This document shows positions 38,215-41,636 of a DNA stretch of 59,963 bases, piece after piece. The notes under the pieces were generated by a model. It was not told the DNA's origin. It worked only from the letters and a program-made list of their open reading frames with translations, and made no database searches. Numbering within the stretch: the first letter of the stretch is position 1; the number at the start of each line of letters is the position of its first letter. Origin of the DNA: Bacteroidota bacterium (lineage in GTDB: Bacteria; Bacteroidota; Bacteroidia; Cytophagales; UBA9547); assembly GCA_004293915.1 (NCBI GenBank), contig RDZG01000091.1, forward strand, positions 1 through 59,963, given 5' to 3'. The position numbers were made by a program, and so were the translations under genes.

Positions 38215-39015
38215 ATGGCATTTGATTTTCATTTTAATAAACCGCAATATTTCAACCAACAATTTTTAAATGCAAAAACGCATATAATTCCTTTTATTGA
38301 ACAAACTTTTGAGCTAAAAAAAGGCATGAAAGTGCTCGAAATTGGCTGTGCCGAGGGTGGAGTTTTGAAAGCATTTGTTAAAAAAGGTTGCCAATGTGTG
38401 GGTGTAGAACTAAGCCAAAGCAAAGTAGACAATGCACATATTTTTATGAAAAACGAAGTCGAAAATGACTCCATAAAATTTATCTGTAAAGATATTTATG
38501 CACTTGATTTTAAAACTGATTTTTTACATTATTTTGATATAATCATACTAAAAGATACCATAGAACATATTCATGAGCAAGAAAAAATAATTTCCTATTT
38601 ACATGATTTATTAGCCCCAAATGGCTGTATTTTTTTTGGATTTCCACCTTGGTATATGCCTTGGGGTGGGCATCAACAAATTTGTAAATCAAAATTTTTG
38701 ATGTATTTACCATATTTTCATCTTTTGCCAATGTGGGCTTATAAAGCCATTTTAAAAATATTTGGCGAAACCAATCAGCATATTGAGATTTTAGCCGAAA
38801 TTAAAGAAACTGGAATTTCTACTCGCAGATTTGAAAAAATTATTCAAAATTCTGATTTCAAAATTGAAAACAAACGTTTTTATCTTGTAAATCCCATTTA
38901 TACCTATAAATTTGGATGGAAACCTAGAATACAACCAAAAATCATTTCTGCCATTCCCGTTTTAAATGATGTGCTGTGTACAACCGTTTTTTATACCATA
39001 AAATCGAATGTTTAG
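38215..39015 (+). CDS. SAM-dependent methyltransferase
   Basis: A 266-residue class I methyltransferase: the SAM-binding motif I in KVLEIGCAEGGVLKAFV (residues about 40-56), the acidic end of beta strand 2 in CVGVELSQSKVD, KDIYALDF and the later IIILKDTIEHIHEQ. The substrate is unknown; the aromatic-rich C-terminal region (PPWYMPWGGHQQICKSKFLM) and the location in a housekeeping region give no clear hint. Its end overlaps the start of the symporter gene by 8 bases. Confidence 0.85.
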   Translation: MAFDFHFNKPQYFNQQFLNAKTHIIPFIEQTFELKKGMKVLEIGCAEGGVLKAFVKKGCQCVGVELSQSKVDNAHIFMKNEVENDSIKFICKDIYALDFKTDFLHYFDIIILKDTIEHIHEQEKIISYLHDLLAPNGCIFFGFPPWYMPWGGHQQICKSKFLMYLPYFHLLPMWAYKAILKIFGETNQHIEILAEIKETGISTRRFEKIIQNSDFKIENKRFYLVNPIYTYKFGWKPRIQPKIISAIPVLNDVLCTTVFYTIKSNV

Positions 39016-40237
39016 CAAAAATTTCCATTCAATATTTTTAAAATCAGGCATATTTATTTGGATAATAATTGCTATTATTTTAGGTGTTTGTGCAGGTTTT
39101 TTATTGCCCGATTTAGCTCAAAACACCCAACTTTTGAGCGATATTTTTTTGCGATTAATCAAAATGATTATGGCTCCGCTGGTTTTTTCTACAATAGTAA
39201 TCGGAATTGCAAAACTAGGTGATTTCAAAACAGTTGGACGTATTGGCATAAAAACATTGATTTACTTTTATGCTGCAACATGCGTTTCCTTGCTTTTAGG
39301 TTTGCTTTTAGTAAATTATTTTGAACCAGGCAAAGCAATGGATTTGAGCCTATCTACAGCTCAAAACCTAAACACAGTTCAATCGCAAAGTATTGATTTT
39401 AAGAGTTTTATATATCGAATTTTTCCTACAAGTATTTTTGAAGCCATGTCGAAAAACGAAATTTTACCGATTGTAATTTTTTCGCTTTTTTTCGGAACTG
39501 GTTTAGCTGCAATTGGCGAAAAAGGCAAACCTGTTTATGTATTATTAGAATCAGTTGCAGAAATAATGTTTAAAATTACAAGTTATGTGATGAAATTTGC
39601 TCCTTTTGCTGTTTTTGGGGCACTAGCAACTGTGGTTGGCAAACAAGGAATTGGCGTTTTAAAAGGCTATGGCTTTTTAATTGCCTGTTTTTATGGAGGC
39701 TTACTATTTTTTGGGTTTGTGATTTTGCCATTTGTATGTGCGATTTTTAAAATTAATTTCTTAAAACTATTTTCAAATATTAAAGAACCTGTTTTGTTGG
39801 CTTACAGCACCGCCACTTCAGAAAGTGCATATCCAAAAACCCTCGAAGGATTGGATAAATTTGGTTGTAACCCAAAAATATCTGGGTTTGTATTGCCTCT
39901 AGGTTATTCTTTTAATTTAGATGGATCTATGATGTATATGACTTTTGCTACTTTATTTATTGCACAATCTTACGGAATAGAAATTTCGATTAGCCAACAA
40001 TTCTCTATGATGTTGGTTTTGTTGGTTGCCAGCAAAGGAGTTGCTGGTGTTCCTAGGGCTTCATTAGTTGTGATTTCGGGTTTGTTAGATACCTTTCAAA
40101 TTCCAGCAGAAGGATTAGTTTTGCTCTTAGGAATAGATCACATTTTAGATATGGGTCGTTCGGCAATAAATGTAATGGGAAATGCAGTTGCTGCTTGTGT
40201 GGTTGATAAATGGGAGGTAAGCTCGCTAAGACGCTAA
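39008..40237 (+). CDS. Dicarboxylate/amino acid:cation symporter (DAACS family)
   Basis: A 409-residue transporter of the GltP/DctA fold, using Na+ or H+ to import C4-dicarboxylates or glutamate/aspartate. Motifs: LRLIKMIMAPLVFSTIVIGI, a serine-rich hairpin LLAYSTATSESAYPKTLEGL, the LPLGYSFNLDGSMMYMTFAT segment and SKGVAGVPRASLVVISGLLD, then LGIDHILDMGRSAINVMGNA. The last five residues before the stop (SSLRR) are encoded by the repeat array that begins at 40221, so the native end was replaced; after WEV the original tail is not known. Confidence 0.92.
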   Translation: MFSKNFHSIFLKSGIFIWIIIAIILGVCAGFLLPDLAQNTQLLSDIFLRLIKMIMAPLVFSTIVIGIAKLGDFKTVGRIGIKTLIYFYAATCVSLLLGLLLVNYFEPGKAMDLSLSTAQNLNTVQSQSIDFKSFIYRIFPTSIFEAMSKNEILPIVIFSLFFGTGLAAIGEKGKPVYVLLESVAEIMFKITSYVMKFAPFAVFGALATVVGKQGIGVLKGYGFLIACFYGGLLFFGFVILPFVCAIFKINFLKLFSNIKEPVLLAYSTATSESAYPKTLEGLDKFGCNPKISGFVLPLGYSFNLDGSMMYMTFATLFIAQSYGIEISISQQFSMMLVLLVASKGVAGVPRASLVVISGLLDTFQIPAEGLVLLLGIDHILDMGRSAINVMGNAVAACVVDKWEVSSLRR

Positions 40238-40361
40238 GACTCAAATTTTACTTTGCGAGATTTAAAAAACAACTTAGCGACTTTGCATCTTTGCGAGAAT
40301 AAAAAAAACAACTTAGCTGCTCCATATCTTTGCGAGAATAAAAAATTACTTTGCGAGACAA
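40221..40361. repeat. Left array of the TTTGCGAGA/TTAGCG repeat
   Basis: It begins with GCTCGCTAAGACGCTAAG inside the symporter gene and continues with an inverted unit (ACTTTGCGAGA), then two direct units of about 38 bases, AACAACTTAGCGACTTTGCA with TCTTTGCGAGAATAAA (40268-40306) and a variant with AACTTAGCTGCTCCATATCT (40308-40345), and a final partial ACTTTGCGAGAC. The same unit recurs in the right array. This palindromic repeat type is familiar from intergenic regions of Bacteroidota. Confidence 0.85.
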
Positions 40362-40372
40362 AAACAATATCT

Positions 40373-40828
40373 ATGACAGAAAACGAACTTTCAAGAATAA
40401 TTGTAAATACTGCATTTAACATTCATACTAAACTTGGACCGGGTTTATTTGAGTCTGTTTATGAAGAAATAATGAATTATGAACTCACAAATTCGGGTTT
40501 ATTTGTTGAAAGGCAAAAAGAAGTTCCTGTTTATTGGGATAATTTAAAAATGGAAATTGGTTTTCGTGCAGATTTAATCATTAATAATAAAGTTATCATT
40601 GAATTGAAATCTGTAAAAACAATTGAACCTGTACATCCAAAACAACTATTAACCTATTTAAAATTGACAAACCTTAAACTTGGATTACTCATAAACTTTA
40701 ATGAGGCTTTAATAAAAGATGGGATAACTAGAATTGTTAATAATTTATTGTTTTGTCTCGCAAAGTCGCTAAGACGCAAAGATTACTTTTCGACTTTGAA
40801 ACTTTGCGAAATAAAAAAAACAACTTAG
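40373..40828 (+). CDS. GxxExxY protein (PD-(D/E)xK nuclease-like), embedded in repeats
   Basis: From the ATG at 40373 (MTENELSRIIVNTAFNIHTK) the 151-residue protein carries the naming motif G24-x-x-E27-x-x-Y30 (GLFESVY), then RQKEVPVYWDNLKMEIGFRA, the nuclease-like acidic pair RADLIINNKVIIELKS (D then ExK) and HPKQLLTYLKLTNLKLGLLI, NFNEALIKDGITRIVN. This is the PDDEXK_3 / GxxExxY family, unknown in function. The last 24 residues (CLAKSLRRKDYFSTLKLCEI, KKTT) are coded by the right repeat array. An upstream frame from 40253 would translate the left array and is unlikely. Confidence 0.88.
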   Translation: MTENELSRIIVNTAFNIHTKLGPGLFESVYEEIMNYELTNSGLFVERQKEVPVYWDNLKMEIGFRADLIINNKVIIELKSVKTIEPVHPKQLLTYLKLTNLKLGLLINFNEALIKDGITRIVNNLLFCLAKSLRRKDYFSTLKLCEIKKTT

Positions 40829-40867
40829 CGGCTTTGCATCTTTGCGAGATAAAAAATTTACTTAGCT
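40752..40867. repeat. Right array of the TTTGCGAGA/TTAGCG repeat
   Basis: It starts with the inverted unit TCTCGCAAAGTCGCTAAGAC (from about 40755), continues with ACTTTGAAACTTTGCGAAAT, and ends with a direct unit ACAACTTAGCGGCTTTGCAT with CTTTGCGAGAT (40819-40855), matching the left units closely. Both arrays contain units in both orientations, with hisF beginning 14 bases after the end. Confidence 0.85.
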
Positions 40868-40880
40868 AGAACAAAAAAAC

Positions 40881-41636
40881 ATGCTTACAAAACGTATCAT
40901 CCCATGCCTAGATATCAAAGATGGCAAAACTGTAAAAGGAGTAAATTTTGAAAACCTCCGTGATGCTGGCGACCCGGTAGAACTTGCACAAATCTATGCG
41001 AACGAAGGTGCAGATGAATTGGTATTTTTAGACATCACAGCTACCGTTGAAAAGCGTAAAACTTTAGCAGATTTAGTAAAGCGTGTTGCACAAGTAATTA
41101 ATATTCCATTCACTGTTGGTGGTGGAATCAGTTCTATAGAAGATGCTTCAATTCTTTTGGCAAATGGGGCAGACAAAGTTTCTATCAATTCTTCAGCCGT
41201 TAAAAACCCGAAACTAATTTCAGATTTAGCAAAAGAGTTTGGTTGTCAGTTTGTTACAGTAGCCATAGATACACGTTTTGTAAACGAAAACCATTTTGTG
41301 CATACGCACGGTGGCAGACAACTAATAAATTTAGAAACTATTTGGTGGTCAAAAGAAGTCGAAAACTTAGGTGCTGGCGAAATTTTATTAACTTCTATGG
41401 ATCATGACGGAGTTAAAAATGGATTTGCAAATCAACTAACTTCAATAATTTCTACAAATGGAAACATACCTGTAATAGCATCTGGCGGTGCTGGAAATAT
41501 GGAACATTTTAAAGATGTTTTTTCTCAAGGGAAAGCCGATGCCGCTTTAGCGGCTAGTATTTTTCATTTCAAAGAAATTTCAATCCCAGATTTAAAAAAA
41601 TATTTAGCTCAAGAGAAAATTCATGTTAGAATATAA
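40881..41636 (+). CDS. hisF: Imidazole glycerol phosphate synthase cyclase subunit
   Basis: Forms imidazole glycerol phosphate and AICAR from PRFAR and ammonia in histidine synthesis, with HisH. The 251-residue (beta/alpha)8 barrel has [20 protein letters not shown] with the catalytic aspartate at residue 11, [47 protein letters not shown], the second aspartate in [14 protein letters not shown], and [15 protein letters not shown]. No other his genes lie in the window; the upstream neighbour is now the repeat array, so its promoter may have been altered. Confidence 0.97.

Follow-up and report, generated by a model that had tools for sequence, protein, structure and literature searches.

We analysed a contig of 59,963 nucleotides from a bacterium of the order Cytophagales (RDZG01000091.1; hereafter the window), in which a gene of the GxxExxY family lies between a symporter gene and hisF and is flanked by two arrays of one palindromic repeat. 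The association of GxxExxY genes with palindromes turned out to be far above controls in many genomes, and the repeat sequence tends to match the protein clade. We read the window locus as a member of a widespread system resembling repetitive extragenic palindromic (REP) sequences, with a GxxExxY nuclease gene in the palindrome loop, and put the probability of this reading at about 55%. Such a REP-like system would have its own nuclease in place of a REP-associated tyrosine transposase (RAYT); its movement and cleavage are what we infer from comparing sequences.

Enclosure of GxxExxY genes by inverted repeats

Matches to GxxExxY above the cut-off occur in 52 of 98 Cytophagales genomes, with up to eight per genome. 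The order set comprised 75 loci: four from the host, three from the host genus, 28 obtained via search and 40 more taken in table order. Three loci near a contig start (G023:C13, G096:C281, G008:C427) were left out, a similar one (G005:C543) was kept, and five loci with an in-frame stop were retained. To score enclosure, the 150 nt before the start codon were aligned to the reverse complement of the 150 nt after the stop; the threshold of 15 is the 99th percentile of 154 control open reading frames (ORFs), which were drawn from these loci as well as from symporter loci and of which two exceed it. Among 73 testable loci, 46 score over 15 (Mann–Whitney U test against control ORFs, p=2e-19), with an arm 1-122 nt upstream of the start within the 150 nt searched. 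The flanks of these 46 units favour periods of 8-10 bp (mean z 0.7-1.3; all other periods <0.6).

A second set held 58 loci from named genomes, found with one Hymenobacter protein; four Hymenobacter and seven cut-short or partial loci were left out, and one of the remaining 47 was too short. Here 28 of 46 loci exceed the threshold, compared with 0 of 43 displaced controls. By record title the passing loci, many of them from metagenome bins, belong to Bacteroidota, Planctomycetota, Acidobacteriota, Chloroflexota, Pseudomonadota, Verrucomicrobiota, Desulfobacterales and a Firmicutes bin. Phages gave no GxxExxY match and plasmids gave 7 in 72,556 records; the unit is therefore mostly chromosomal.

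Agreement between protein clade and repeat word

The preliminary description dealt with a single repeat. Repeat words vary between GxxExxY loci: the window's repeat is one of many, and clades of the family tend to own a core word. Across 2300 between-family locus pairs, protein similarity correlates with flank similarity (rho 0.312, null standard deviation 0.029, 0/500 permutations), as against 0.047 (19/500 permutations) for flanks 850-1000 nt away. With GC difference and control flanks removed, the partial rho is 0.307 (0/300), and for pairs with protein similarity <0.6 it is 0.161 (0/300). Agreement in core word among the three nearest protein neighbours reaches 0.71, compared with 0.20 after shuffling (0/1000). 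On the protein tree, which was built from only 117 columns and leaves many forks open, core class changes 19 times, compared with 48.9 in shuffled data (0/200).

Among 110 loci, 11 of the 12 nearest relatives of the window protein have CGCAAAG cores, and these 11 come from Bacteroidota, Planctomycetota, Acidobacteriota, Ignavibacteriota and Pseudomonadota. The clade of the window protein (14 rows, support 100/97) combines 12 CGCAAAG members with two CACAGAG members and spans Bacteroidota, Planctomycetota, Acidobacteriota and Pseudomonadota. As judged from sequence, protein clade thus predicts the repeat word across families and phyla.

The word is also linked to the gene at the genome level. 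CTTWGCGNCTTWGCG, representing the window's CTTWGCG word, was found in 18 of the 98 order genomes. GxxExxY is present in 17 of these 18, as against 35 of the 80 others (p=5e-5; genome-level p values here ignore kinship between genomes), and in all 14 genomes with two or more matches. With the pattern reversed as a control, ten genomes had one match each. The earlier expectation that repeat presence tracks the gene therefore holds for this word, but not clearly for ACAGGATT (see below).

Two pairs of loci deserve mention in their own right. L047 (G048) and L048 (G023), from different families, have a protein similarity ratio of 0.93 and arms scoring 81, and their flanks 250-1300 nt away are not shared; each follows the end of a similar gene, and at L047 a second similar gene end seems, by eye, to lie past the repeats. 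L049 (G075) and L050 (G019), from two genera of one family, have a protein similarity ratio of 0.80 and related flanks, and in both the neighbours, to go by the flanks, are presumably leuC and leuD.

The window locus

The window protein clearly belongs to GxxExxY: its scores exceed the curated cut-offs of both TIGR04256 (141.5 bits vs 35; E 1.4e-41) and PF13366 (134.2 bits vs 22; E 3.6e-39). These are its sole family matches, and there is no match to a Y1 (HUH) transposase. Both flanking arrays are made of one 26-nt repeat composed of CTTWGCGN octamers (Table 1). The 647-base segment 40221-40867 holds 13 such octamers, on both strands, where 2000 Markov-1 resamples averaged 0.16 and never exceeded 3; the remainder of the window holds 8. 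Between the forward and inverted 26-nt units lie degenerate or partial ones, and the innermost arms form a perfect 16-nt inverted repeat around the domain-coding part, a feature shared with insertion sequences and transposons with terminal inverted repeats (TIRs). The family scores, the octamers and the inverted repeat confirm the earlier view of a GxxExxY gene between two arrays of one repeat. As single-stranded DNA, the right array (40745-40880) folds better than 200 of 200 shuffles (z -3.53), and the left array shows no folding excess over shuffles (z -0.34). An Rfam scan of 39500-41500 gave a single chance-level miRNA match.

The repeat reaches into both coding regions, as had been proposed. 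The symporter gene ends in GTA AGC TCG CTA AGA CGC TAA, that is, VSSLRR and a stop, with the final codons and the stop within the repeat. In two same-genus homologues the C-termini read VVDKLELNKS and VVDKLESQKS, where the window has VVDKWEVSSLRR. This fits a symporter end rewritten by the repeat, although the end is variable in all relatives examined. Relatives with an uninterrupted symporter end followed by hisF, which the preliminary description proposed to look for, were not found: the two same-genus symporters lack the repeat but are not followed by hisF, and no exact empty allele of the site turned up. In the GxxExxY protein the family match stops at residue 122, and the rest, from about CLAKSLRRK, is mostly encoded by the right array. 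A TTG-started frame at 40253-40372 (+) crosses the left array into the gene (191 aa), so the repeat is open on this strand.

Table 1. Features of the GxxExxY locus and its neighbours (window positions)
Feature	Position	Strand	Evidence
Sodium:dicarboxylate symporter gene, last codons and stop in repeat	39008..40237	+	PF00375 2.1e-121; C-terminus compared with same-genus homologues
Left array, inverted partial unit (TCGCTAAG ACGCTAAG)	40222..40241	-	octamer scan, repeat search
Left array, partial unit ACTTTGCGAGA	40250..40260	+	
Left array, full 26-nt unit CTTAGCGACTTTGCATCTTTGCGAGA	40273..40298	+	
Left array, degenerate unit	40312..40337	+	
Innermost left arm ACTTTGCGAGACAAAA, perfect complement of 40751-40766	40348..40363	+	inverted-repeat search
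GxxExxY gene, PD-(D/E)XK; family match 40388-40738; tail largely right-array-coded	40373..40828	+	
Innermost right arm TTTTGTCTCGCAAAGT	40751..40766	-	inverted-repeat search
Right array, inverted unit TCTCGCAAAGTCGCTAAGACGCAAAG, 5 mismatches to reference unit	40756..40781	-	
Right array, degenerate unit	40786..40811	+	
Right array, full unit CTTAGCGGCTTTGCATCTTTGCGAGA	40824..40849	+	
Right array, fragment CTTAGCTAGAA	40861..40871	+	sequence
hisF, far-side neighbour, start 31 nt past last full unit	40881..41636	+	TIGR00735 8.8e-108

Repeats and gene copies elsewhere in the host genome

The draft genome to which the window belongs spans 3.85 Mb in 156 contigs and has four GxxExxY genes. L004 lies within an array of palindromes spaced by ~86 nt and built on another word, GCCACGAAT...ATTCGTGGC. 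L002 (contig C98, 16787-17137) is broken by an in-frame TGA, has ACACAGAG-type repeats on one side and is likely a decaying unit; L003 has neither GCCACGAAT nor ACACAGAG repeats. The GCCACGAAT word matches the genome 105 times at <=2 mismatches (control pattern, 0). Palindromes are present at 17 of 18 fetched loci (22 in total); 18 palindromes measure 44-47 bp, and the remaining four 35, 57, 58 and 58 bp. The window's CTTWGCG word recurs at several further places, and all four that were checked lie between long ORFs. The host genome thus contains dispersed multi-copy intergenic palindromes of the REP type. Repeats lacking a GxxExxY gene are commoner in it than repeats with one, contrary to the suggestion that copies always lie near such genes. 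Gene-less repeats had earlier been named as a refutation, but they are what a REP-like system gives.

A further GCCACGAAT locus, L285 (contig C96, 131800-133629), carries a HEPN/nucleotidyltransferase pair (PF05168, PF01909) flanked by a single GCCACGAAT arm and two GCCACGAAT palindromes, on a contig with no GxxExxY gene. The pair is possibly cargo.

One Hymenobacter site across genomes

A search of 61 Hymenobacter genomes with the unit L063 allowed the intergenic site with both flanks to be examined in 40. The unit is present in the same orientation in five and inverted in one; in one more the site holds a gene-less hairpin, and in the other 33 it is free of GxxExxY genes, with gaps of 76-7125 bp and no hairpin scan as part of this count. 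The arms of the inverted unit (L175, G150) are 50 nt long and match perfectly. The gene-less hairpin (L176, G132) folds strongly (z -14.0, DNA parameters); it aligns to the unit of G109 as far as GGAGGAA, immediately ahead of the start codon, and picks up again at the 3' arm. The hairpin appears to be the G109 unit minus its ORF, by either loss or gain of the ORF. In G144 the site is without the gene, and another contig carries a protein of 70% identity whose closely matching arms have a similar word. In six Hymenobacter units the arms are 84-100% identical within a unit and 25-74% between species.

Conserved residues and predicted fold

Among 112 GxxExxY sequences, E27 (112), D67 (111), E77 (112), K79 (112), Q91 (109) and Y95 (110) are nearly invariant. 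The catalytic D and ExK residues of PD-(D/E)XK enzymes are thus present (D67, E77, K79), and PF13366 is itself named a PD-(D/E)XK family. The active-site signature of the window protein is intact, and the protein is a predicted nuclease. Its structure model has a mean predicted local distance difference test (pLDDT) score of 86.5, with the tail from residue 135 mostly under 50. The top structural neighbour of the model in VIA is 4ic1 (SSO0001; Z 9.7, root-mean-square deviation 3.8, 105 residues), which we take to be a Cas4 exonuclease. Only three rows of VIA-align 2 reach Z >= 8, all presumably nucleases or restriction-endonuclease-like; rows below Z 8 may reflect merely a common arrangement.

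The window protein resembles the group of Cas4, lambda exonuclease and Hjc in fold type and in its D, ExK and QxxxY residues. In contrast to Cas4, whose Fe-S cluster is held by four cysteines, there is no cysteine among the columns conserved in >80% of the 112 sequences; the protein is also shorter than members of that group, and its neighbours are a symporter gene and hisF. The PADLOC match to Cas4 has an E-value of only 0.0077, and a PDB sequence search with the window protein gave no match.

A possible mechanism and competing explanations

How might such a system work? Each palindrome arm can be viewed as a row of core words spaced by 8-10 bp, the word tending to match the protein clade. 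We infer that the repeats are bound or cut by the protein they accompany, which thereby spreads them. Most likely it would bind the iterated cores, whose words lie about one helical turn apart, and would cut the hairpin or cruciform formed by the two arms when the palindrome is extruded or single-stranded. Repair of the cut could copy one arm onto the other, giving matched arms, could drop the gene, leaving a solo hairpin, or could flip it; hairpin copies could then settle elsewhere, usually between genes. A bolder proposal, to which we give somewhat less than even odds, is that there is a new class of mobile DNA with GxxExxY proteins as its founding enzymes. These Cas4/lambda-exonuclease-like enzymes would read iterated 8-10-bp words, process the palindrome around their own gene and seed gene-less hairpins; each clade would have one enzyme-word pair, and pairs would pass between phyla. 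If so, this class would have produced many of the palindromic intergenic repeats in Bacteroidota, Planctomycetota, Acidobacteriota and Chloroflexota that so far lack an explanation.

A number of observations weigh against a REP-like system driven by the nuclease. Of the mobile unit suggested earlier, what stands is that gene and flanking repeats belong together across many genomes; binding, cleavage and self-driven movement are putative. Comparison of filled and gene-less Hymenobacter sites, where intergenic DNA is too diverged for boundaries, yielded no target-site duplication. The enclosure test fails at 27 of 73 loci in the order set and at 18 of 46 in the second set. All five Chryseobacterium loci (L214, L219, L220, L221, L227) are without enclosing arms (scores 9-12). 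Only L004 among the four host copies passes, the other three scoring 12 or less; the window gene scores just 10 in this start- and stop-anchored test because its stop codon lies inside the right array. Any ATG frame of >=120 aa could serve as a control ORF, so that control flanks are not always intergenic. Y1 genes, as a gene-type control, pass at 7 of 28 loci; the palindromes there are of another kind, short and closely spaced (e.g. CCCACGGTTTAAACCGTGGGC). The seven core words were set by hand-made regular expressions after the arms had been seen, so the class-free rank correlation is the cleaner test. A word could be assigned to 82 of 111 loci, leaving 29 in no class, and the four rows of the CACAAAG class do not cluster on the tree. 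For ACAGGATT the association with the gene is not significant (5/7 genomes with the word vs 47/91 others, p=0.27), and matches of this type occur in G051 (four) and G094 (one) in the absence of a GxxExxY gene. Foldseek listed LHK-Exo, lambda exonuclease and Hjc for the model, none at E <= 0.001. Finally, arm substitutions are mirrored in some orthologous Hymenobacter pairs (13:0) and one-sided in others (0:8), so arm pairs appear at times to be replaced together and at times to drift apart. Constant concerted evolution as a general rule for the arms was accordingly rejected.

Four other explanations, which overlap, so that their odds need not sum to one with ours, have to be considered. Agreement between gene and arms might result only from joint transfer and inheritance of whole units, the protein never acting on the arms. 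L047 and L048, which share protein and arms but not the more distant flanks, are what this would produce. Even at low protein similarity, however, the word goes with the protein, and orthologous Hymenobacter arms are so much less alike than the arms within a unit that arms must change fast. We regard this explanation as unlikely. The palindromes might instead be ordinary REP or TIR repeats moved by a Y1 (RAYT/TIRYT) transposase, with GxxExxY as a passenger between two copies. Y1_Tnp is found above the cut-off in 70 of 98 order genomes and four times in the host, where one match has a GCCAC palindrome ~460 bp upstream, which also counts against our own reading, and REPtrons and TIRtrons have been described (PMC3733652). 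However, the palindromes around Y1 genes are different, CTTWGCG matches occur in G080 (five) and G023 (one) without any Y1 match, and a mere passenger would not be expected to predict the repeat word across phyla. Since Y1 palindromes differ and the protein matches the word, a Y1 transposase as the mover seems quite improbable.

Slightly less probable still is that GxxExxY forms part of an insertion-sequence-like element targeting the loops of pre-existing palindromes. Some insertion sequences do target REPs (PMC3116915), the gene does lie in the loop, and gene-less and gene-bearing forms exist at one Hymenobacter site. Such targeting, however, predicts a word independent of protein clade, whereas dependence is observed; by eye, 21 loci show no further shared ends between arm and ORF, and no target duplication was found. 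The least probable of the four, in our estimate, is that nothing moves and the arms are RNA hairpins regulating or protecting the GxxExxY transcript. The position of the arm shortly before the start in the 46 passing loci would suit this role, as would the strong single-strand folds of the window's right array and the G132 hairpin, calculated with DNA parameters. It is at odds with the many places, between long ORFs and within arrays, where these words occur without the gene, with the unit inverted at one site, and with the direct-repeat arrays that arms form on both sides of some genes.

Relation to known systems and significance

It has long been asked how short palindromic intergenic repeats spread, and where RAYTs are present they are the leading candidates, as described in PMC3116915 and PMC8266576. 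REP sequences and REPINs with their RAYTs (TnpA-REP) are the closest known system in organisation. As described in the same papers, they too comprise short, dispersed intergenic palindromes and arrays, one gene beside many gene-less copies, and co-evolution of protein and repeat. GxxExxY likewise has repeat sequences that agree with the protein clade, so that the comparison drawn in the preliminary description, with a PD-(D/E)XK protein in place of a Y1 transposase, is upheld in many genomes. The enzyme, PD-(D/E)XK rather than HUH/Y1, sets GxxExxY apart from membership in this system; arms made of rows of cores spaced by 8-10 bp and the position of the gene inside the palindrome are further differences. 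TIRtrons similarly have a gene between inverted repeats and repeat families elsewhere in the genome, but their enzyme is Y1 and no iterated-core build figures in the part of their description considered here (PMC3733652).

In the open-licence literature searched, no repeat partner was reported for TIGR04256/PF13366, broad queries having matched more than could be surveyed, and none of six repeat strings led to a related paper, as judged by title. One open-licence paper that mentions GxxExxY names it only as an annotated domain. GxxExxY genes and their palindromes look like a counterpart, so far undescribed, of REP repeats with their transposases. The database names of the family convey only a motif and a fold; here position and clade-wise agreement link the family to repeats of its own. 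With a predicted DNA word for each protein, the question of how such repeats spread thereby becomes open to direct testing. Should the protein indeed act on its word, the family would amount to a compact, diverse collection of sequence-matched nucleases, and repeat families that have no known mover would find their explanation. The Chryseobacterium loci, as a clade that may have lost or never had arms, would be a good control.

Genes of TIGR02436, an unrelated four-helix-bundle family, offer a comparison: 15 of 30 (L145-L174) are also enclosed by inverted iterated repeats, in this case heptamer arrays. TAACTGA heptamer repeats of unknown origin have been described in PMC4679880, where a term search of the text gave no mention of a helix-bundle gene. 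No protein-repeat agreement was found for TIGR02436 (rho 0.005, 30 loci), and the flanks of its 15 passing genes have a strict period of 7 (z 8-10.5), a build clearly different from that of the GxxExxY repeats, which argues against one general repeat background.

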